This document shows positions 3,024 to 37,858 of a stretch of DNA of 39,303 nucleotides, one piece after another. How positions within the stretch are numbered: position 1 is the first letter of the stretch; the number at the start of each line of letters is the position of its first letter. Position numbers and translations under genes: made by a program. This DNA is from a virus. Under the pieces are notes generated by a model. The model did not search any database and was not told where the DNA came from. It saw only the letters and a list, made by a program, of their open reading frames with translations. The DNA is taken from IMG/VR virus record IMGVR_UViG_3300027983_000037, positions 1 through 39,303 of that record; one strand, written 5' to 3'.

Positions 3024-3025
3024 AC

Positions 3026-3100
3026 ATTCCCGGCTGGATTCGAACCAGCGACCTACAGATTAGAAATCTGTTGCTACTATCCAGCTGAGCTACGGGAATA
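3026..3100 (-). tRNA. tRNA-Arg(UCU)
   Basis: A complete cloverleaf of 75 nt: 7-bp acceptor (ATTCCCG with CGGGAAT), D arm GCTC-AGCTGG-GAGC-like, anticodon loop TTTCTAA with anticodon TCT, and a canonical T arm containing GGTTCGAATCC. The discriminator is G and no CCA is encoded. It decodes AGA, a codon favoured by AT-rich phage genes. It lies downstream of a terminator-like hairpin that follows the gene at 3149-3457. Confidence 0.93.
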
Positions 3101-3768: not shown

Positions 3769-3829
3769 ATGGATTTTTGAAGCACATACCCAAAAACTTT
3801 TCAATTTTGTTAAAATACATTATCTAGAA

Positions 3830-3904
3830 TAGCCTCAAGGGGATTTGAACCCCTGTAACGACCTTGAAAGGGTCGTGTCCTGGACCAGACTAGACGATGA
3901 GGCC
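3830..3904 (-). tRNA. tRNA-Glu(UUC)
   Basis: A 75-nt cloverleaf: acceptor GGCCTCA paired with TGAGGCT (first pair G-U), D arm CGTCTAG...CCAGGAC as in bacterial tRNA-Glu, anticodon stem CGACC/GGTCG with loop CTTTCAA (anticodon TTC), and a canonical T arm around GGTTCAAATCC. No CCA is encoded. It lies 5 nt downstream of the aberrant tRNA-like structure and is presumably co-transcribed with it. Confidence 0.92.
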
Positions 3905-3909
3905 AAGAA

Positions 3910-3980
3910 TACGCCGTCATGGTGCTGCCCCATGTTGAACCCGTTATAAGCGGGTCTGCGAAGCTGTCCGCCCACGGCGC
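3910..3980 (-). tRNA. Aberrant tRNA-Ile(UAU)-like cloverleaf
   Basis: 71 nt fold into a full cloverleaf: 7-bp acceptor (GCGCCGT with ACGGCGT, first pair G-U as in the neighbouring tRNA-Glu), 2-nt linker, a short D arm of 3-4 bp, a 5-bp anticodon stem with loop CTTATAA (anticodon TAT, U33 present), a 4-nt variable region and a 5-bp T stem (CATGG/CCATG). The T loop is GGCAGCA instead of TTCRANY and the D loop lacks GG, so the usual elbow contacts are missing. It could be a minimal tRNA, a decaying tRNA or a tRNA-shaped RNA of other use. Adjacent to tRNA-Glu. Confidence 0.55.
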
Positions 3981-3988
3981 AAGATTGA

Positions 3989-4237
3989 TTAGTGATCATA
4001 ATGAATTATAGTCTTTTTAGTAGAAGCATGATCTCGGTCATCAATAATAAAATAGTTAGCATGTTGACGGTCACTATCGTTACCTAGTCTATAATTAATT
4101 TGTGATACTCCTAATTTTGAAATATTATCTTCATTTAGTGTTATGAGGTTAAATACTAACTCATTTCCTTTTAAAACAGCTTCTCCAACAGAAGAAGCAT
4201 CTATAGGAATATCTATAAACAGTCTAAATGTATTCAT
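3989..4237 (-). CDS. Hypothetical protein upstream of the tRNA pair
   Basis: 82 residues, alpha/beta, with an N-terminal strand (NTFRLFIDIPI) and a polar, His/Asp-rich C-terminus. No family recognised. It is the first gene behind a consensus promoter (4244-4272) whose TATAAT ends 6 nt before the ATG, so the message should start at the AUG. The stop codon is 8 nt from the aberrant tRNA, so this promoter probably also transcribes the two tRNAs. Confidence 0.5.
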   Translation of the reverse strand: MNTFRLFIDIPIDASSVGEAVLKGNELVFNLITLNEDNISKLGVSQINYRLGNDSDRQHANYFIIDDRDHASTKKTIIHYDH

Positions 4238-4711: not shown

Positions 4712-5674
4712 ATGAAAATAAATGAAGCAAAATCAGCATATAAAGAATTCTTTACCACAATTTTAGTCGAACAATTAAAAGATGAAATAAAAGTACATGG
4801 TTGTATAATACCTCCTAAGTATACAAATTCATATTTAAAAGAAGCATTAAATAATAATTTGATGTTATTTCTAGAAATGTCTGATGCGACTGATAGGTCA
4901 AACGCAGAACTCTTCGGAAGATTGCAATCTCAGGGCTTAAGCCCTGAGCAAATATCAAACAGTGGTGGATTTAAGAATTCAAAAGGGCAAGGTACGAAGG
5001 GATTTAATATGACGCCTAAGGAGTTCGCAGGAATGAACAGGGCGGCAGCGGCAGCGGCAGCTCCTGTGGTTAGTACACCAACCACTTCGCGTGGTGGTGG
5101 TGGTGGTGGTGGTGGTGGTGGTGGTGGTGGTGGTGGAGCTCCATCAGAGTCCGCAGCAGAGAGTATTACTTCACGTCTTAAAGCTAACCAAGATTATCAA
5201 CGCCGAAATCCTGCAACAGGTCGAATAGAACTGAATCTAGATCCAAGTGGGCTTGCCAGAAGTGTAACTACAGGCGATTTACATCCTAGTAATAAGAATT
5301 ACGAACTAGATAGAATATCTAGAGCATCAGCTGGTTTGGGTCTTGGTGGTGGTAGTGTCCCACCAACGAATACTGCTACAGCCCCTGGTGCTGCAGCACC
5401 AGGTTTAAAAGGTAAGATACCTTGGGGAAAGATTGGAGTTGGTGTTGGTGCAATTGCTGCTGGCAAAATAATCTATGATTATTTTAATAAAAATGAAAAT
5501 GGAGCTCCGAATCAAAATGGAGCTCCACCAATAGTACCAGTAGCTAGAGATGAAGTTCAGCCTATGGTAGTTCCTTTCGGTGGATTCCCATCTCGTCGAG
5601 GATTCTCGGTAAATAGCAACAATACCTCAAGTTTTAATAATAATACAAATAGTAATAATATTAACAGTTTTTAA
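4712..5674 (+). CDS. Low-complexity virion-type protein A with poly-Gly tract
   Basis: 320 residues. The N-terminus (about 1-30) has an amphipathic segment with ILVE at 17-20, resembling a prohead targeting peptide ending in [LI]xE. Residues 109-144 are Ala- then Gly-rich (15 consecutive Gly), then a polar region, a Gly-rich hydrophobic stretch (about 232-258, GKIGVGVGAIAAGKIIYDYF) that could insert in a membrane, and an Asn/Ser-rich tail. It is paralogous to the protein at 12114-13268: similar N-termini and nearly identical last 40 residues. Possibly an internal head or ejected protein; this is inference. Confidence 0.55.
   Translation: MKINEAKSAYKEFFTTILVEQLKDEIKVHGCIIPPKYTNSYLKEALNNNLMLFLEMSDATDRSNAELFGRLQSQGLSPEQISNSGGFKNSKGQGTKGFNMTPKEFAGMNRAAAAAAAPVVSTPTTSRGGGGGGGGGGGGGGGAPSESAAESITSRLKANQDYQRRNPATGRIELNLDPSGLARSVTTGDLHPSNKNYELDRISRASAGLGLGGGSVPPTNTATAPGAAAPGLKGKIPWGKIGVGVGAIAAGKIIYDYFNKNENGAPNQNGAPPIVPVARDEVQPMVVPFGGFPSRRGFSVNSNNTSSFNNNTNSNNINSF
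5093..5134 (+). repeat. (GGT)14 microsatellite inside protein A
   Basis: Fourteen perfect GGT units followed by GGA encode a 15-Gly run. Such a tract is prone to slippage in units of three, so linker length should vary between isolates without frameshift. Confidence 0.95.
5552..5671 (+). repeat. 120-bp inverted repeat, left arm
   Basis: This stretch, the 3' end of protein A, is matched in inverse orientation by 12120-12239, the 3' end of protein A'. By eye only four of 120 positions differ, all in third codon positions or conservative. The two arms bracket about 6.4 kb of late genes. Confidence 0.9.
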
Positions 5675-12113: not shown

Positions 12114-13268
12114 TTAAACAAAACTGTTAATATTATTACTATTTGTATTATTATTAAAACTTGAGGTATTGTTACTATTTACCGAGAATCCTCGACGAGG
12201 TGGGAATCCACCGAAAGGAACTACCATTGGTTGAACTTCTGGTGGAATGGCAGGTATTATTGGTGGAGTAGTGGGAATCGGGGAAGCTTCATCTTCTTTG
12301 TTAATACCAAGAAGTTCTAATTGCTTACTATAATTTTTTTCCGCTTTTTGCATAATGTTATTTTCTGATTTCAAGAACTCTGTATCATCTCTTGTATCAT
12401 CTGTTACGTAATTGAACATCTTAGGAACATAATGTCCAAGAGCTAAGAGACCTGCTGCTGCAAGTCCATATTGTCCATATTTTGCATATCCTCCAGATGC
12501 CAATTTGGTACCAAATGATTTTAATCCTGCGATACTAGCCATTTCTGATAATATTCGTGATGATTTAATAGTCATTGATGATTCAGGAATATCAATTGGA
12601 TCTCCCATGGGATCTCCGATAACTCCCCACATGTTTTCACGCTTTCTGAGCAATATATCATTATCCATTGCAATTCGGCGAAGTTTGTTTTGGTGTTTTT
12701 TCTCAACACGGACATTTTCTTCTTTTTCCTTTTTTCCAAGTGCATCTTTGGATACATCTCCTTCAGTACCATAGGAATTAGTTATTGCATCTCCAGCCGC
12801 ATTTCCAATCACACCTCCACCCCATGCTCCACCAATACCTCCAATTACTCCGCCTATCACTGATCCAACACCAGGAAAAATAGCTGTTCCTATAGCTGCC
12901 CCAGCTGCCGCACCTCCCCAAAATCCCAAACCGCTACCTACACCGGCACCAGTAGCTCTAATAGCAGTTTTTCCTATATTTTCAGCCGTTCCAGCTCCTT
13001 TTTCTTTATTTTCTTGCCATTCGTCCCGACCACCCAATCCTGCCTCCACCACACCTGTTACAGGGCCCCATAGAATTTTTTCATTTATCATGAATTTTTT
13101 TATTAACTTCTGCCTAATTTCTTCTTTAATAATAGGATTTGTATATTTAACAGAAAGGTTGGGATCTATAATAGTCCCATTAATAGCTATTTCATTATTT
13201 AATTGTTCAATTAAACATGATTTAAAATAATCTTTATATATTATTTTTATACTGTTAATAGATGTCAT
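12114..13268 (-). CDS. Low-complexity virion-type protein A' (paralogue of 4712-5674)
   Basis: 384 residues. The N-terminus (IIYKDYFKSCLIEQLNNEIAINGTII) parallels that of protein A, with LIE at 19-21 as a possible prohead cleavage site. A long Gly-zipper segment (about 107-160, with repeated GxxxG such as GSVIGGVIGGIGGAWGGG) and a second Ala/Gly hydrophobic stretch (about 266-280) could insert in a membrane. The last 40 residues are almost identical to protein A and lie in the 120-bp inverted repeat. It follows the gene at 13284 after 15 nt. A role in membrane penetration during DNA ejection is a hypothesis. Confidence 0.5.
   Translation of the reverse strand: MTSINSIKIIYKDYFKSCLIEQLNNEIAINGTIIDPNLSVKYTNPIIKEEIRQKLIKKFMINEKILWGPVTGVVEAGLGGRDEWQENKEKGAGTAENIGKTAIRATGAGVGSGLGFWGGAAAGAAIGTAIFPGVGSVIGGVIGGIGGAWGGGVIGNAAGDAITNSYGTEGDVSKDALGKKEKEENVRVEKKHQNKLRRIAMDNDILLRKRENMWGVIGDPMGDPIDIPESSMTIKSSRILSEMASIAGLKSFGTKLASGGYAKYGQYGLAAAGLLALGHYVPKMFNYVTDDTRDDTEFLKSENNIMQKAEKNYSKQLELLGINKEDEASPIPTTPPIIPAIPPEVQPMVVPFGGFPPRRGFSVNSNNTSSFNNNTNSNNINSFV
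12120..12239 (-). repeat. 120-bp inverted repeat, right arm
   Basis: Inverse copy of 5552-5671 with about four differences. It codes for the shared C-terminus containing VQPMVVPFGGFP and an Asn/Ser-rich end. Confidence 0.9.
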
Positions 13269-16316: not shown

Positions 16317-16345
16317 AGTATACTCTATAGATTAGATTTTGTCAA
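16317..16345 (-). promoter_or_regulatory. Sigma70 promoter of the DUF4406 gene
   Basis: TTGACA (16345-16340), 17 bp, TATACT (16322-16317), ATG 8 nt downstream at 16308. The transcript leader would be only about 2 nt. Confidence 0.75.
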
Positions 16346-16383
16346 GTTTTTGGTCGAAAAAGTGGATAAAAGTGGGTAAAACT

Positions 16384-16391
16384 TATAAATA
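16384..16391 (+). promoter_or_regulatory. T4-type late promoter of homing endonuclease
   Basis: Exact TATAAATA ends 4 nt before the ATG at 16396, so the message should begin at the start codon. It fixes the start: an ATG-less extension to 16339 would lie upstream of the transcript. Confidence 0.7.
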
Positions 16392-16395
16392 TAGT

Positions 16396-17103
16396 ATGGA
16401 ATCAACTATTGAAAAAATTGCAAGAATATATCTTGTCCGACTAAATGGCGGCGGTAAATACACTGGGGTTACAACTAATAGCATAGAAAAACGATGGACA
16501 CAGCATTGTTATGCTGCAAAAGTTAACAAAACTAAATCTGTGCTACATGCTGCCATACGAAAATATGGTGCAGGTGCATTTACAACAGAAGAACTCTACC
16601 AATCTACCGACCTTGAGCATACCTTGAATGTGAAAGAAATGGAATTTATCGTGGAACACAAAACTCATGTATCTGAAGGCGGGTATAACTTAACACTGGG
16701 CGGAGAAGGGATGGCTGGTCATGTTCCTTCTGAAGAAACACGGAAAAAAATGTCTCTGACAAGAAAAGGAAGACGTTTTTCAGAAGATCATCGTCGAAAA
16801 ATATCCAAAGCAAATACAGGAAAAGTTCGTTCAGATGAAGCTAAACAAAAAATGTCTTTGCATGGTAAAAGTCCTTCCAAAGAAACACGGCAAAAAATAT
16901 CTAAAGCAGGAAAAGGAAGAGTTCATTCTGACGAATCCAAACAAAAAATGTCAAAGGCTAAAAAAGGGAAACCTATTTTAGCAGAAACTCGACTAAAAAT
17001 GTCAGAAGCGAAAAGGGGCAGAATTATTCCAATAGAAACTAGACGAAAAATGGCAGAAAGTCAAAAGTTGCGTCGATTACGACAGGTATCGCCACCGTTA
17101 TAG
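16396..17103 (+). CDS. GIY-YIG homing endonuclease with NUMOD3 repeats (copy 1)
   Basis: 235 residues. The nuclease domain (about 8-95) has RIYLV and KYTGVTT as the GIY and YIG strands, EKRWTQH with the catalytic Arg, an AAIRKYG helix, and FIVEHKT with the metal-binding Glu, ending in GGYNLTLGGEG. Residues about 105-225 hold six or more S(E/D)ET(R/K)xKMS helices, the NUMOD3 DNA-binding repeats, with a Lys-rich spacing. It is closely related to the gene at 25531. It stands alone on the plus strand, converging on a long minus-strand operon, and is probably a selfish freestanding element. Confidence 0.88.
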   Translation: MESTIEKIARIYLVRLNGGGKYTGVTTNSIEKRWTQHCYAAKVNKTKSVLHAAIRKYGAGAFTTEELYQSTDLEHTLNVKEMEFIVEHKTHVSEGGYNLTLGGEGMAGHVPSEETRKKMSLTRKGRRFSEDHRRKISKANTGKVRSDEAKQKMSLHGKSPSKETRQKISKAGKGRVHSDESKQKMSKAKKGKPILAETRLKMSEAKRGRIIPIETRRKMAESQKLRRLRQVSPPL

Positions 17104-18964: not shown

Positions 18965-19269
18965 TTAGTAGTCTCCTTAAGACTGTCACCGACATCCTTC
19001 GCAGTTTTCGCATTGTAGTCCACAGACACCAACACCTTTGCATACTCTCCTGTTTTCTGTATGACCTGTTGTAGACTTGCAATAGTTCCATATCCATAGA
19101 ACTCTTCGCCGACCATTAACATTGGCCCACCCTCAAAATCTATCATGTTTGGTGCTACTCTTATAAACTCCGATACTCCACTTACCTCAAAGATGCCTCG
19201 TTCCATATCAATCCACTTAACAGTTCTTGCGGTAGAATATCTACTATGTACTGTGAATTTATCGTTCAT
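18961..19269 (-). CDS. Hypothetical protein
   Basis: 102 residues, mainly beta, with VKWIDMERGIFEVSGVSEFIRVAPNMIDFEGGPML near residues 17-52. It lies directly after the RNA ligase with ATGA overlap and may serve with it. No family recognised. Confidence 0.45.
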   Translation of the reverse strand: MNDKFTVHSRYSTARTVKWIDMERGIFEVSGVSEFIRVAPNMIDFEGGPMLMVGEEFYGYGTIASLQQVIQKTGEYAKVLVSVDYNAKTAKDVGDSLKETTK

Positions 19270-20324
19270 TTTAATTCCTTTTCTTTTAACAAATACGAGT
19301 TTGATACAACTTTGAAGTTCAGACTTCCATCACAGGCTTTGAACACAAGCCCTTCGCGTTCTTGTTTGTCATTCAGTGCTGACTTTCCTTCTGCCAGCAA
19401 CAATAATTGACTGACAGTGCCGGGATGCAAATCCTCGTTCATCAAAATAATAGGAACATGGTCAAGACCCATACTCTCAATTACCATTCGTCTGTATTCT
19501 GGCTTTAGGAATTTGCCTGATTTGATATGGTATATATCATACACATAAAATGCGTGTTTCGCAAGCTTATAGATATTACTTTGTATGCCGGGTCCAACTA
19601 ACTCTCCTTGAATAGCCCAATCGCTGGGATTAACATGGCGGCAACACCGCATTTTACTTTCAATATCGTTAGCTCTAACGGTGTCCCAAAAAGTATTACC
19701 TACTGACTCCATTAGATCTATGTTATGACTACACACACCAAATACTCCATTGATTAAATAGCATGTTGCTGCGGATCCTTCAAGCTTCTCTGTAATTTCA
19801 AAGAGAGTATCTTTTGCTTCAAAGATTTCTTTTGATAAATTTTGAGCTCGTTCTTGATTCGATCTAGGAATCGAGGAAGGATAATTGCCTTTTGCTACTC
19901 CACTTAACTGTGCCGTCAAGGATGGAGTCCACAGGACTATTCCTAGAAGTTCTGTGACATCTAGACCCTCGACGAATTGATCAGGGGTGATTCTTGATTC
20001 GTCGGTTCTTGTGTCGTACATACAAGCCGAATACAGATCCAGCACCAGCCCCTGACTGATTTGCCCACGCAAAACTATAGTCCGCAGTCGTTCGCCTGGC
20101 CCATGCCCCATAAACTCACGAGGGGTTTTGTCTTTGCTCAAGAACGGTGCCACATGATGCGGCACCCATGAATCAATCTCGATATAGACTACGAGTTCGC
20201 CTACTTCAAAATCTCTTTTTCTGACCACGACAGACCAGCCACCAACCTTGGCACACTCGATGTTATCGGCGCCCTCGATAGGATGGATTGAATCTATTTT
20301 TCTTATTGTTGCGAGTTTTCTCAT
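19266..20324 (-). CDS. RNA ligase, Rnl5/DRB0094-like family
   Basis: 352 residues. An N-terminal OB-like region (about 1-130, with IHPIEGADNIECAKVGGW and GELVVYIEIDSWVP) precedes the nucleotidyltransferase domain. K180-L-E-G is motif I with the adenylated lysine, AIQGELVG (about 237-244) is motif III, EGLVFK (324-329) motif IV and FKVVSNSYLLK (337-347) motif V. This order and the N-terminal domain match the Deinococcus-type ligases that seal 5' phosphate ends in RNA. In phages it may repair tRNAs cut by host nucleases, consistent with tRNA genes in this genome. Coupled to both neighbours. Confidence 0.85.
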   Translation of the reverse strand: MRKLATIRKIDSIHPIEGADNIECAKVGGWSVVVRKRDFEVGELVVYIEIDSWVPHHVAPFLSKDKTPREFMGHGPGERLRTIVLRGQISQGLVLDLYSACMYDTRTDESRITPDQFVEGLDVTELLGIVLWTPSLTAQLSGVAKGNYPSSIPRSNQERAQNLSKEIFEAKDTLFEITEKLEGSAATCYLINGVFGVCSHNIDLMESVGNTFWDTVRANDIESKMRCCRHVNPSDWAIQGELVGPGIQSNIYKLAKHAFYVYDIYHIKSGKFLKPEYRRMVIESMGLDHVPIILMNEDLHPGTVSQLLLLAEGKSALNDKQEREGLVFKACDGSLNFKVVSNSYLLKEKELK

Positions 20325-25530: not shown

Positions 25531-26274
25531 ATGATTACTGATGTAGCAAAGGTGGGAAGAATATATCTAGTCCGTTTAAACGGAGAGCCAAAATATGTTG
25601 GGTTTACTACACAAGGTATAGAAAAGCGATGGGAAGAGCATTGTTGGAAAGCAAAAAATAACGGTATAAATGTTATTCATGCCGGCATCCAAAAATATGG
25701 TAAGGATGCCTTTACAACCGAAGTACTTTACCAGTCGGCCGACCTCGAGCACACACTGAATATTAAAGAAAATCAATTTATTATGGAACATAAAACTCAT
25801 GTTTCTGAAGGTGGGTATAATTTAACAATGGGCGGGGAGGGAATGATTGGTGCTTCCGATGAAACCAGACGAAAAATATCAAAGGCCGGAAAAGGAAATC
25901 GAAACGCTGTTGGGTATATTCATTCTGAAGAAGCTAAACAAAAAATGTCTGATGCGAAAAGGGGAAAAAGCAGTGGTCGTGTTTGTTCTAAAGAATGTAA
26001 ACAAAAAATATCTGAAGCTAAAAAAGGCAAATACCCTTCTGAAGAAACTAAATACAAAATGTCTATTGCTAGTAAGGGAAAAGCAAAGTCGTCCGAACAT
26101 CGTAGAAACGTTTCTTTGGCAAATCTAGGGAAAGTTTTATCTGTAGAACATTGTCGAAAAATATCCGAATCACACAAAGGGAAATGGCATTCTGAAGAAG
26201 TTAAACTAAAAATATCAGAGTCTCTAAAGAAGCGAGCCGCTTTGCGACGCCTGACAATTATTCATAATCCCTGA
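25531..26274 (+). CDS. GIY-YIG homing endonuclease with NUMOD3 repeats (copy 2)
   Basis: 247 residues. The nuclease domain has GRIYLV, KYVGFTT, EKRWEEHC (Arg), IQKYGKDAFTTEVLYQS and FIMEHKT (Glu), ending GGYNLTMGGEG. About seven NUMOD3-like helices (SEEAKQKMS, SKECKQKIS and others) follow to residue 235. Strong similarity to the gene at 16396 in every block indicates duplication or independent arrival of one family. Its last 17 nt overlap the end of the convergent DNA ligase gene. Confidence 0.88.
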   Translation: MITDVAKVGRIYLVRLNGEPKYVGFTTQGIEKRWEEHCWKAKNNGINVIHAGIQKYGKDAFTTEVLYQSADLEHTLNIKENQFIMEHKTHVSEGGYNLTMGGEGMIGASDETRRKISKAGKGNRNAVGYIHSEEAKQKMSDAKRGKSSGRVCSKECKQKISEAKKGKYPSEETKYKMSIASKGKAKSSEHRRNVSLANLGKVLSVEHCRKISESHKGKWHSEEVKLKISESLKKRAALRRLTIIHNP

Positions 26275-28345: not shown

Positions 28346-28624
28346 TTAGATTTCTTTGTGGATATAAAATGTGATTCCGGCCTTCTTGCGGTTCTTCATC
28401 ACCTTCTCATAAGTAGCACGAATCCGCAGCATCATGAATGAACTCTTGACGAGGAATCCATGATCTCTTATGCCATCCGCAAAAAAGTAACCAGTACCAG
28501 TCTGTGCTTGTTTCTGAGCACGAGTAAGCTTCTTGAATGCTAACTCCATGCCAGGCATGTCTTTAGATTCGATGGTGAAGGAGTATTCTTTAGACTTGAG
28601 GGGTGACTTGAGGGGTGTTTTCAT
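28346..28624 (-). CDS. Hypothetical basic protein
   Basis: 92 residues from ATG 28624, chosen because the -10 box GAGAAT ends 7 nt upstream; a longer frame would start before the transcript. Lys-rich N-terminus (MKTPLKSPLKSKEY), then alpha/beta. No family recognised. First gene of the DNA ligase operon. Confidence 0.5.
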   Translation of the reverse strand: MKTPLKSPLKSKEYSFTIESKDMPGMELAFKKLTRAQKQAQTGTGYFFADGIRDHGFLVKSSFMMLRIRATYEKVMKNRKKAGITFYIHKEI

Positions 28625-28631
28625 GTGGTGT

Positions 28632-28660
28632 ATTCTCCCATAATGTTGTAAGGGTGTCAA
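28632..28660 (-). promoter_or_regulatory. Sigma70 promoter with TATGG-GAGAAT extended -10
   Basis: TTGACA (28660-28655), 17 bp ending TATGG, GAGAAT (28637-28632), ATG 7 nt on. The same TATGG-GAGAAT-AYACA core occurs at 32141, 35781 and 37572, so this is a distinct subclass. Confidence 0.75.
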
Positions 28661-28728
28661 GCTGATGGGGTGATAATTTGTCATAATTTGTACTGTGGCC
28701 ATGTGTGTAAGCGTAAACGCTAGCGCGA

Positions 28729-29875: not shown

Positions 29876-32134
29876 TTACGATGCAATCTGTTCAATGAAC
29901 TTCGTTAAAAGAGCCTTACTTACAAGGTTTGGGCTCATACTCTTACGAAACGCCGTGCATACCTTTGCAACCGATACTGATCCTCTTTGCAAGTTATCCA
30001 GTTCGTTATCGTCGTCGATTGCGAGAGCCGATCCACGAACAACATACATCTCGTCATAACCATTATATCGTGAACCTTGATCGGCGACAAAGAATCCTTC
30101 TTTCTTGAAAGATGATTGCTTTGCAGTCTTATCGGCACCTTTACTGTCAGGATTGGTAAACGCCGATACACAATTATCATGAATTGTGGATTTATTGTAG
30201 ATATAAAATCCGATCACATTTGCTCCAGTTTGTTCTGCATGAATCCGCAACATGACTTTTGTAGACATTGAATTGTACGAATAATAATTATGTTGATCGT
30301 CATCTTTCCAATTCTTATCAAAATACTTTTTGGTGTTGTATGTTTTCTTACTTGCAGGATCAATAAGAAATACTTTGCTATTTGCATTGCTGTTATATGC
30401 AGTACCACCTTCACCGTCAGTAAGGAAGATGGAGCTGCAAATCTGAATGTTATGCTTCTTCTGAAATGCGTTCACAATACTAGATGCCGCAACAATACAC
30501 TCGTTAAGTGGAGTAGAGTGCAAAACCAACAAAGGCGAAACTGCATTTCTTTGGGATATATTAAACATATTTGCCAATGCAGATGTCATTTCTTTCATTG
30601 ACATTGACGAGCTCACAAAGTTCAACAATGCAAAATTATCTAATTGCATGATGCTGGAGTCCATTTTTGGCGCTCCACTCATACATTGGCTATCGTTCGT
30701 GTATGGTGTGCCATCTTTTGATTTCCACGAACCACACTTAACTGATTCAACATCGCCAAGATTTTCGCCCATCATTTCAAGACGAACATGAACACTAGAG
30801 AACGAATAGACCTCAAATGGAATGTTGCATTTCTTGCAAAACAAAGCAATGAGAAAGCATTGTTTGATCGTGTCCTCGATGCAATCTGTCATAGAACTCG
30901 ACCAGTCCACGAACATAACAACGCCGTGATTTTTACCTTCACGAATCGTAACATGACGAGCAAAAATATCTTCTGAAAACTTATATTTCATCATCTTGAC
31001 ACAATCCAAGATTCCTGTCTTGGATATGTTTGTTCTCTTGTGGGCATCTGCAGCCTTCTTCATCTCGAATTGTTTGACCAAGATTCCTACTGATTTCTTG
31101 GATTGAGTGATGAATGTTTTTGCTTTGACCAAAGATTCTTCGAAATACTTATCGGCATCTCGGTAATAACCGCCAGGCTGCTTAATCAGCATTTCTGTAT
31201 GACTGGATCGAATCTGATTGATTTCTGCGGCCGTGATAATGAGATTCTCAAGAATCGGTGCAGGAATTGTTAGATAACTGCAATCCTTTGTTGATTTATC
31301 AACAAGTTTTTCAGAGTTCTTCAAGAATGCCTCATGACACGCCGGCATTGCAGGAGCTACAGAGTTCAGATCGTATCCCTTACCGCCTTGGATTCCGTTA
31401 CACTCTTGTGGTGCATCGCCCTCTTCCCCCTCTTCTCCGCCGCCTTTGACTTTCTTATATGCCATTTGGGGTTCAGGAGGCGGTGCCTTTTCACGATTTT
31501 GACTGATCTCAAAGTCCCAAATATCTTTGGTGATCTGCACAACATCCTCAAATGTTTTTGATTCTGCGATACGATCTACAAAGACTTGCTCTTCAGTAGA
31601 GAATGTAACACCCATGTTTTGTTCGGCAGATACGCCCAACTTGAAATGGAGATTGATTCGATCCATAAAGCATCGCTTTTCAGCTGGGCTTTTCTTCAGA
31701 TCAAAGAAGTCTTTTGCGTTCATGAAATTATACGCCGCAATAAAATCACGGCGCAGGCCTGGAAACTTTGTCTTAATAAGTCGTTCAATGCGAGCATCTT
31801 CTACGATATTCAGATACGACATTGCGATATGCCCGTGCGAATCGCCGCCGATTTCTTGAGCATCCACAGACCATTCGCCTTTGTGCTTTGACGCAGTTTC
31901 ACGAGCATCATCGTATGGTGTGTATAAAGCATGACCAATTTCATGGCCTACCAACATATCATAAGTAGAATTGTCCATGTCTTTCCATACTGGAAGAACA
32001 AGTACACGATTCTTGGTATCAAACATGGCCGTCTTTGATTTAATATCGTGCCTTACCGAGATATTCTCGGTGGCAAGAAGCTGTGCGAGAATACTTTTAG
32101 AACCTTTGTTCACATTATTTTGGGAGTGAGTCAT
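29876..32134 (-). CDS. CobT-like protein: HExxH metallopeptidase-like plus VWA domain
   Basis: 752 residues. Near the N-terminus lies H64-E-I-G-H68 (GHEIGHALYTP) with NIVEDARIERLI (109-120) as the likely third-ligand helix, a zinc-peptidase-like arrangement. After an acidic linker (about 215-245), a von Willebrand A domain (about 403-700) contains D410-W-S-S-S414, the MIDAS DxSxS, and a later IFLTDGEGG. The partner is the CobS-like AAA+ ATPase at 34062: MoxR/CobS ATPases act with VWA proteins to remodel targets or insert metal. Cyanophage cobS genes are known. The target here is unknown; no cobalamin genes are nearby, so chelatase function is doubtful. Confidence 0.8.
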   Translation of the reverse strand: MTHSQNNVNKGSKSILAQLLATENISVRHDIKSKTAMFDTKNRVLVLPVWKDMDNSTYDMLVGHEIGHALYTPYDDARETASKHKGEWSVDAQEIGGDSHGHIAMSYLNIVEDARIERLIKTKFPGLRRDFIAAYNFMNAKDFFDLKKSPAEKRCFMDRINLHFKLGVSAEQNMGVTFSTEEQVFVDRIAESKTFEDVVQITKDIWDFEISQNREKAPPPEPQMAYKKVKGGGEEGEEGDAPQECNGIQGGKGYDLNSVAPAMPACHEAFLKNSEKLVDKSTKDCSYLTIPAPILENLIITAAEINQIRSSHTEMLIKQPGGYYRDADKYFEESLVKAKTFITQSKKSVGILVKQFEMKKAADAHKRTNISKTGILDCVKMMKYKFSEDIFARHVTIREGKNHGVVMFVDWSSSMTDCIEDTIKQCFLIALFCKKCNIPFEVYSFSSVHVRLEMMGENLGDVESVKCGSWKSKDGTPYTNDSQCMSGAPKMDSSIMQLDNFALLNFVSSSMSMKEMTSALANMFNISQRNAVSPLLVLHSTPLNECIVAASSIVNAFQKKHNIQICSSIFLTDGEGGTAYNSNANSKVFLIDPASKKTYNTKKYFDKNWKDDDQHNYYSYNSMSTKVMLRIHAEQTGANVIGFYIYNKSTIHDNCVSAFTNPDSKGADKTAKQSSFKKEGFFVADQGSRYNGYDEMYVVRGSALAIDDDNELDNLQRGSVSVAKVCTAFRKSMSPNLVSKALLTKFIEQIAS

Positions 32135-32231
32135 GTGTATATTCTCCCATGATCATGTCCCGCTGTCAAGCGGTAAGGACAAGAATTATATTATGCAAGT
32201 GCAAAAGTCCGATAACCTTTTTACTATCAAC
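32135..32231 (-). repeat. Duplicated upstream regulatory element, copy 1
   Basis: About 97 bp before the CobT-like gene match 37566-37662 before the gene at 37161. The first 45 bp (promoter) are nearly identical. A middle GTCCGATAAC block and the terminal GTTGATAGTA motif (32222-32231) are also shared. Confidence 0.75.
32141..32169 (-). promoter_or_regulatory. Sigma70 promoter of the CobT-like operon
   Basis: TTGACA (32169-32164), 17 bp ending ATGG, GAGAAT (32146-32141), 6 nt, ATG 32134. Leaderless geometry. Confidence 0.78.
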
Positions 32232-35753: not shown

Positions 35754-35780
35754 CCCGTACATATTATTTACATTATATGC

Positions 35781-35809
35781 TTGACAACGACACAACATTA
35801 TGGGAGAAT
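35781..35809 (+). promoter_or_regulatory. Sigma70 promoter of the winged-helix pair
   Basis: TTGACA (35781-35786), 17 bp ending TATGG, GAGAAT (35804-35809). Unlike its relatives it is followed by a leader of about 28 nt with AAAGGAA before the ATG at 35844. Confidence 0.78.
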
Positions 35810-35843
35810 ATACACAGTTCAACAAGAAAGGAACTACACACAT

Positions 35844-37164: not shown

Positions 37165-37565
37165 GAATTGGCCTCACCCATGTTCCACTCTTGGGACAGC
37201 ATCTCTGCCGTATATGCCGCCGTTTCATATTGCGGTTCAGGGCCGACATCGTTGGACTTTGCGAGATCATCACGAAGCTGACGAAAGCCACCAAGCATAT
37301 CATGAAACGCCAGCAAGTGCTGCTTGAGACTCGCCACCGACTTCTGCATCATCTGATGGAACTGCTCCTCTTCTTCAGTGGCATCAGGATCAGAATGATG
37401 CTGGTTACCGGCCGCCATAACTGCCTTACAGATCAATTCGTTGGTGCAAAGACCCATGCCGAACTTTGCCATACTTGTGCCGAGCAGGTCGATATGTCCA
37501 ATGAGAATGTTTGCGGGCATAGGAGAGCGCAGAACGCTCACGATAGGAGGCTGATTTGTAGTCAT
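37161..37565 (-). CDS. Hypothetical protein, paralogue of 37871-38392
   Basis: 134 residues. Shared blocks with the other copy: PANILIGHIDLLGTSMAKFG...C, LRDDLAKSNDV, YETAAYTAEM. Helical. First gene of its unit, with ATG 6 nt after the -10 box. The paralogue lies just upstream beyond tRNA-Lys and a terminator. No known family. Confidence 0.55.
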   Translation of the reverse strand: MTTNQPPIVSVLRSPMPANILIGHIDLLGTSMAKFGMGLCTNELICKAVMAAGNQHHSDPDATEEEEQFHQMMQKSVASLKQHLLAFHDMLGGFRQLRDDLAKSNDVGPEPQYETAAYTAEMLSQEWNMGEANS

Positions 37566-37662
37566 GTGTATATTCTCCCATGATCATGTCCCGCTGTCAA
37601 GCGGTATGGACAAGATTTTATGGTGCGATTGCACAAGTCCGATAACATCGTATACTATCAAC
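37566..37662 (-). repeat. Duplicated upstream regulatory element, copy 2
   Basis: Second copy of the roughly 97-bp element before 32134. It carries the promoter TTGACA (37600-37595), 17 bp, GAGAAT (37577-37572), ATG 37565, and the GTTGATAGTA motif at 37653-37662. Confidence 0.78.
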
Positions 37663-37785: not shown

Positions 37786-37858
37786 TGCCTTCTGTGGGAC
37801 TCGAACCCACGACCAGAGAATTAAAAGTTCCCTGCTCTACCAGCTGAGCTAAGAAGGC
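37786..37858 (-). tRNA. tRNA-Lys(UUU)
   Basis: A 73-nt canonical cloverleaf: acceptor GCCTTCT/AGAAGGC, D arm GCTCAGCTGGTAGAGC, anticodon loop CTTTTAA (anticodon TTT), T arm GGTTCGAGTCC, discriminator A, no encoded CCA. It lies 12 nt downstream of the gene at 37871 and is probably co-transcribed with it. Confidence 0.95.

Follow-up and report, generated by a model that had tools for sequence, protein, structure and literature searches.

A phage tRNA-Ile(UAU) in which A18 and G55 probably take the place of the G18-Ψ55 elbow contact

Background

The nearest precedents for tRNAs with an unusual elbow are suppressor tRNAs with unusual D and T loops obtained by in vivo selection and a staphylococcal tRNA-Gly. 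The staphylococcal peptidoglycan tRNA-Gly is non-translational and, like the RNA described here, carries changed D and T loops in a normal cloverleaf. Among cytoplasmic tRNAs the G18-Ψ55 contact counts as universal.

Residue 18 contacts residue 55 inside the elbow, and the G19-C56 pair forms the exposed face (PMC4810234). RNase P, T-boxes and the ribosome, in its A, P and E sites, dock on this face (PMC4810234). Elbow positions 18, 54 and 55 are the sites of the modifications Gm18, m5U54 and Ψ55 (PMC7912444). Phage tRNAs can escape tRNA-cleaving defences by anticodon-loop changes or by expression (PMC10264068, PMC11555353).

We analyzed a stretch of 39,303 nucleotides (the window), which is an IMG/VR record of a T4-like phage. 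It is regarded as T4-like because its CobS-like ATPase and peptidase match those of Pelagibacter phage HTVC008M and of cyanophages. A first-pass annotation had pointed to a tRNA-Ile(UAU)-like cloverleaf with abnormal D and T loops in this window.

Results

The gene and its fold

The gene comprises 70 nt and the discriminator A73 at 3910 (Table 1). Read on the minus strand from 3980 to 3910, it is GCGCCGU GG GCGGACAGCUUCGC AG ACCCG CUUAUAA CGGGU UCAA CAUGG GGCAGCA CCAUG ACGGCGU A, with an acceptor stem of 7 bp (its first pair is G·U), a D stem of 4-5 bp, and anticodon and T stems of 5 bp each. CCA is absent from the window copy and is encoded in some of its relatives. The cloverleaf of the first-pass annotation is borne out: the stems are full, and the search for a better fold that would exclude it returned the cloverleaf itself as the minimum free energy (MFE) structure of the minus strand (-30 kcal/mol, z -2.9, with 2 of 200 shuffled sequences equally good). 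No cloverleaf was obtained when the plus strand of 3910-3980 was folded.

Table 1. Positions of the tRNA-Ile(UAU) gene, its parts and other genes of the window
Feature	Positions	Strand	Remarks
tRNA-Ile(UAU) gene, alternative elbow	3910..3980	-	sequence, MFE cloverleaf, covariance with relatives
Acceptor stem, 5' strand GCGCCGU	3974..3980	-	pairs with 3911-3917; compensatory changes at 7/7 pairs
Acceptor stem, 3' strand ACGGCGU	3911..3917	-	compensatory changes in relatives
D arm GCGGACAGCUUCGC	3958..3971	-	A18 = 3965, G19 = 3964; G18 G19 in canonical orthologues
Anticodon arm ACCCG-CUUAUAA-CGGGU	3939..3955	-	UAU at 3948-3946; compensatory changes at 5/5 pairs
T arm CAUGG-GGCAGCA-CCAUG	3918..3934	-	sequence; coupling of the loop to A18 in every allele
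tRNA-Glu(UUC), canonical elbow	3829..3905	-	4 nt downstream of tRNA-Ile; ARAGORN, Rfam 61 bits
tRNA-Arg(UCU), canonical elbow	3024..3100	-	ARAGORN, Rfam
tRNA-Lys(UUU)	37786..37858	-	called normally by ARAGORN, Rfam
82-aa ORF directly upstream of tRNA-Ile	3989..4237	-	synteny by blastp
RNA ligase (phrog_968; Pfam RNA_ligase)	19266..20324	-	possible tRNA/RNA repair enzyme

The unusual loops had also been read correctly: the T loop is GGCAGCA (G54 at 3929, G55 at 3928, C56 at 3927, A57 at 3926, G58 at 3925), and the D loop has AG where canonical tRNAs have GG. With the canonical tRNAs of RF00005 the window copy has in common the cloverleaf, the arm lengths, U33, A37, A73, G53-C61, G19-C56 and a purine at 57; it departs from them in A18 for G18, G54G55 for U54U55, G58 for A58 and G8 for U8. 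As a result of G8 the usual U8-A14 contact is absent, as it is in sister phages with the canonical elbow. Neither ARAGORN nor the Rfam tRNA model (searched to E = 10) reports the gene, though each finds the adjoining tRNA-Glu, and its score is below the RF00005 gathering threshold (29 bits).

The anticodon loop has seven nucleotides, CUUAUAA, including U33 and A37, both of which are found in all 14 relatives described below. Marks recognized by isoleucyl-tRNA synthetase (IleRS) are A73, A37, A38, C4-G69 and C29-G41. The window copy keeps them all; U12-A23 is absent. Across the relatives A73 and A37 are each present in 14/14, A38 in 13/14 and C29-G41 in only 10/14, and C29-G41 was dropped as a strict IleRS mark.

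AUA accounts for 32% of the Ile codons in 21 window ORFs; the codons served by the other window tRNAs (AGA, GAA and AAA) are also common in these ORFs. Other features of the window are a 120-bp inverted repeat (5552-5671 and 12120-12239; 96.7% identical) lying within two different ORFs, two related NUMOD3/GIY-YIG homing endonuclease genes (16339-17103 and 25531-26274; about 76% identical over 294 bp), and an element of about 38 bp present four times (28624-28662, 32134-32171, 35779-35816 and 37565-37602; about 84% identical), perhaps a shared promoter.

Stem conservation in relatives

Two contigs carry the window tRNA stretch unchanged, and further relatives were found by a pattern of the anticodon loop and the T loop. 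A search of INPHARED phages for DNA related to the RNA and the sequences beside it matched only the adjoining tRNA-Glu. In an alignment of 14 alternative-elbow Ile(UAU) sequences the acceptor, anticodon and T stems are paired in 97.5% of cells vs 30-40% for slid controls, and compensatory changes occur at 16 of the 17 stem pairs. A first set of six sequences, with the D stem included, likewise keeps its stems by compensatory changes. Thus stem conservation, chosen beforehand as a check on the annotation, holds, and so does its view that the gene is not simply decaying.

Orthologues with the ordinary elbow

A covariance model of the relatives, searched over related phage records, led to L107 and L108. 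ARAGORN reports both as tRNA-Ile(TAT); they are ordinary tRNA-Ile(UAU) genes with ACGGUUUU in the D loop and the T loop UUCGAUU. A homologue of the 82-aa ORF lies directly upstream of tRNA-Ile(UAU) in canonical- and alternative-elbow relatives alike. The genes of the sister T4-like phages (L107, L108, L428 and L429) share with the window copy this synteny, the architecture of the acceptor, anticodon and T stems, the CUUAUAA loop, the short D arm GCGGAC..CGC and G8 G9; they have GGUUUU in the D loop and UUCGAUU in the T loop, whereas the window has AGCUU and GGCAGCA. The anticodon loop is identical in orthologues of both kinds.

The alternative-elbow gene L135 and L107/L108 have the anticodon stem and most other positions in common; their differences lie chiefly in the variable loop and the two loops of the elbow. 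In a small tree of concatenated genes, L135 and the canonical region L414, which holds L108, are sisters (support 1.0); a second canonical region, L413, is separate from them. Because the gene that follows this ORF in sister phages has ordinary loops, we regard the difference as an orthologous elbow swap, and the alternative-elbow tRNA-Ile(UAU) has a common origin with recognized tRNAs. Both elbows occur within each of two anticodon-stem lineages (GCCGA and ACCCG). Therefore either the elbow switched at least twice or the gene underwent recombination.

The annotation had stated that neither usual elbow contact can form. This is right for one of them: the consensus G18-U55 contact, present in the same-locus orthologues, is absent from the window copy, where the coupled residues A18 and G55 replace it. 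For the other it does not hold: when aligned to orthologues with the canonical elbow, the window copy retains G19 and C56, and the changes are confined to G18, which becomes A, and U54U55, which become GG. A loss of the elbow contacts is not supported.

Coupling of positions 18 and 55

The T loop had been part of some of the earlier search patterns, and its invariance in those scans is partly ascertainment. For this reason we ran a scan with no constraint on any of the T loop or on the core of the D loop, to which this bias does not apply, and obtained 38 contigs with 20 distinct alleles. A18G19 goes with G54G55C56 in 12 of 12 alleles (GGCAGCA in 11, GGCAACA in one), and G18G19 goes with U55C56 in 8 of 8 (UUCGAUU in five, AUCAACA in two, UUCAACC in one). 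G19 and C56 are invariant in all alleles of this syntenic group. The chance of such a 12/8 split is 1 in 125,970 for independent alleles; the sequences are related, so allele counts are not counts of independent events and the figure is only a guide.

We also scanned 3.7 Mb for cloverleaves with no requirement on the elbow and obtained 150 distinct RNAs, against none from shuffled sequence. All 15 RNAs with G55 have an AG D loop, and all 133 with T/C55 have GG. These counts are not a survey, as the GGCAGCA T loop had served in part to choose the loci. Among the 15, the D loop of one Met tRNA, from a 379-kb phage, is ambiguous and allows two readings. Two further RNAs have G18A19 with U55U56, resembling compensatory changes of the 19-56 pair. 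Taken together, the coupling suggests that G18·Ψ55 is replaced by an A18/G55 contact while the outer G19-C56 pair is kept. Three-base Watson-Crick kissing between D-loop GCU and T-loop AGC was considered and rejected; it is broken in the AGAUU, AGUUU and ..CAGUA alleles, which keep A18G19.

Other isotypes, phages and cellular genomes

The A18/G55 coupling is also found in unrelated phage contigs (L268, L381, L293 and L420), in tRNAs for Asn, Thr, Trp, Pro, Asp, Glu, Lys, Met/CAU, Gly and Ile-GAU. In the L268 array A18G19 accompanies G55C56 in Thr, Pro, Trp, Asn, Asp, two Glu(UUC) and Ile(GAU) tRNAs; the second Glu(UUC), with the D loop UUUAAAAGAUAG, is the least clear case. Some L268 tRNAs with G55 fit imperfectly: Gly has the T loop AGAGUUA and an unclear A18G19, Glu(CUC) has A56, and the Ala D loop contains both AG and GG.

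The contig L381, from a Bacilli bin, is rich in tRNAs and carries a tmRNA as well as ORFs resembling a release factor and a homing endonuclease. Its Ile(UAU), Lys(UUU), Lys(CUU; with U56) and two CAU tRNAs have the alternative elbow, alongside ordinary Gly, Leu, Pro, Arg, Asp and His tRNAs. ARAGORN found the adjoining ordinary tRNAs and missed the alternative-elbow copies, including Ile and both Lys. Rfam accepts alternative-elbow copies in L381 (46.7 bits) and L136 (43.7 bits) as tRNAs. In L380, from an Atopobiaceae bin, the Ile(UAU) form lies near terminase-, portal- and MuF-like ORFs, as judged from translations. The same T loop, GGCAGCA, recurs in unrelated phages: T4-like phages, L136, the Atopobiaceae phage L380 and L381.

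A model search over 783 bacterial genomes (one order and one class), which scored 12 candidates per genome under strict filters so that rare chromosomal cases may escape, found the alternative form only in phage-like contigs. The matches were two phage-bearing bins, a 283-kb phage-like contig with an alternative-elbow Gly(GCC) (L420/L422) and one ordinary tRNA-Met, a weaker match in genome G411 that was discarded. A pattern scan across GTDB gave 33 matches, of which only two (L380 and L381) form a cloverleaf; the other 31, as well as the candidates L010, L014, L015 and L018, were set aside as chance matches without one. BLAST of the L136, L268 and L381 tRNA arrays against cultured phages yielded only partial matches, mostly annotated as ordinary tRNAs; two that were inspected, CBA120 tRNA-Met and Akh-2 tRNA-Ile, have canonical elbows.

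Several other RNA-related genes were seen in phage and phage-like contigs. An RNA 2'-phosphotransferase (phrog_5470) and an RNA-binding protein (phrog_850) near the L420/L422 tRNA-Gly form a possible tRNA repair cluster. tmRNA genes (RF00023, 109-117 bits) are located at L005:4265-4633, L006:2846-3212, L011:2417-2794 and L381:21-412; the tag is ANTRAFAMAA in L005, L006 and L011, which are relatives of the window phage, and the T loops of the tmRNAs of related phages and of L381 are ordinary. A permuted tmRNA (RF04321, 64 bits) lies at L298:2997-3192 in a contig that also carries an alternative-elbow tRNA-Ile. The 379-kb phage record G051 (L372-L374) has 62 tRNA matches. Here and in a related 112-kb record, G052 (L375), the elbow of some tRNAs is altered in further ways: C55 accompanies G18, and in Met and Trp U56 accompanies A19.

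Discussion

The window gene probably encodes a working phage elongator tRNA that reads AUA as isoleucine, with an A18/G55 inner lock in place of G18·Ψ55 and G19-C56 kept. As far as sequence comparison can tell, a working AUA-decoding tRNA is the simplest reading. Such a tRNA would fold into the normal L with the G19-C56 docking face intact, would be charged by IleRS and would be used on the ribosome. Lacking G18, U54 and U55, it could carry no Gm18, m5U54 or Ψ55. Because these residues are gone, its elbow would be independent of host modification enzymes, and it would look unlike the host elbow to any enzyme that reads this region.

That the gene is a decaying pseudogene might be suggested by the failure of ARAGORN and the Rfam tRNA model to recognize it; the compensatory stem changes and the identical loops in distant phages refute this, and its probability is negligible. 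A non-translational tRNA or a tRNA-shaped regulator or decoy is very improbable. Altered D and T loops do mark the staphylococcal tRNA-Gly, but that RNA is a bacterial glycine tRNA, whereas the phage class spans many isotypes, several of them in one array, and keeps the ribosome-docking G19-C56; in place of a glycine anticodon and a bacterial cell-wall role we find UAU and a phage genome. The anticodon loop, moreover, is strictly kept. The regulatory RNA proposed by the first-pass annotation was rejected because the syntenic orthologues are ordinary tRNA-Ile(UAU) genes.

Three readings concern the reason for the swap. A18/G55 tRNAs may remain uncut by a nuclease of the host or of a rival phage that reads the D/T elbow, so that phage translation continues after depletion of host tRNAs. 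This escape trait is a reason for the working tRNA, not an alternative to it, and we propose it tentatively. All alternative-elbow forms found sit in phage or phage-like contigs, including those from the 783 bacterial genomes; the window phage has an RNA ligase, and the contig with tRNA-Gly has an RNA 2'-phosphotransferase close by. Evasion of tRNA-cleaving defences by way of the elbow is plausible because phage tRNAs are known to evade such defences (PMC10264068, PMC11555353) and D-loop bases distal to the cut site affect the PARIS nuclease AriB (PMC12409363). The evading phage tRNAs of van den Berg et al. (PMC10264068) also differ from the host tRNA at conserved loop positions; however, their changes are in the anticodon loop, while those of the window tRNA are in the elbow and their evasive role is hypothetical. 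Published evasion works through the anticodon loop or high expression, and mutations of the cleavage site in the anticodon loop or stem, the hallmark of anticodon-nuclease evaders, are absent from the window tRNA. Besides, our findings include no candidate nuclease that reads G18-U55, and the window phages alter Ile(UAU) only, with the adjoining Arg and Glu tRNAs canonical. Neutral compensatory drift, in which rapidly evolving phage tRNAs would have acquired A18/G55 repeatedly as an equally tolerated substitute for G18-U55, is rather unlikely: other elbow pairs do vary in the huge phage and its relative (G18 with C55, A19 with U56), and the L424 allele GGCAACA with A18 is one T-loop base from the common form, but recurrence of the seven-base GGCAGCA in unrelated phages is not predicted unless genes were exchanged. 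Finally, a purine-rich A18/G54/G55 lock could be stable without Ψ55, m5U54 and Gm18, which would help when phage tRNA synthesis outpaces host modification and would involve no defence. The swap does remove three commonly modified elbow positions (PMC7912444) together; the other window tRNAs, however, keep the normal elbow and presumably use host enzymes, and we consider this reading unlikely.

In a bolder form, of which we are far from confident, A18/G55 with G19-C56 would be a second heritable "elbow code" of phages that fits many isotypes, moves between unrelated phages and hides tRNAs from enzymes reading G18-Ψ55, with ribosome docking intact. The enzymes evaded might be host defence nucleases, modification enzymes and possibly a phage-encoded nuclease for host-tRNA shut-off. 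We found no description of A18/G55 tRNAs in the literature searched, which covered few subscription journals.

Since the A18/G55 swap is found again in phages that are not related, there seems to be a second working design for tRNAs in phages; as a coupled natural replacement, the swap suggests that an elbow can be made in at least one more way. The matched natural pairs, with the same stems and two elbows, allow tests of what the elbow is for. Counts of phage tRNAs by ARAGORN or T-loop-based models are too low, because alternative-elbow copies are missed, for example by ARAGORN in L381. If defence evasion is indeed the reason for the swap, tRNA-based counter-defence of phages would extend from the anticodon loop to the elbow.
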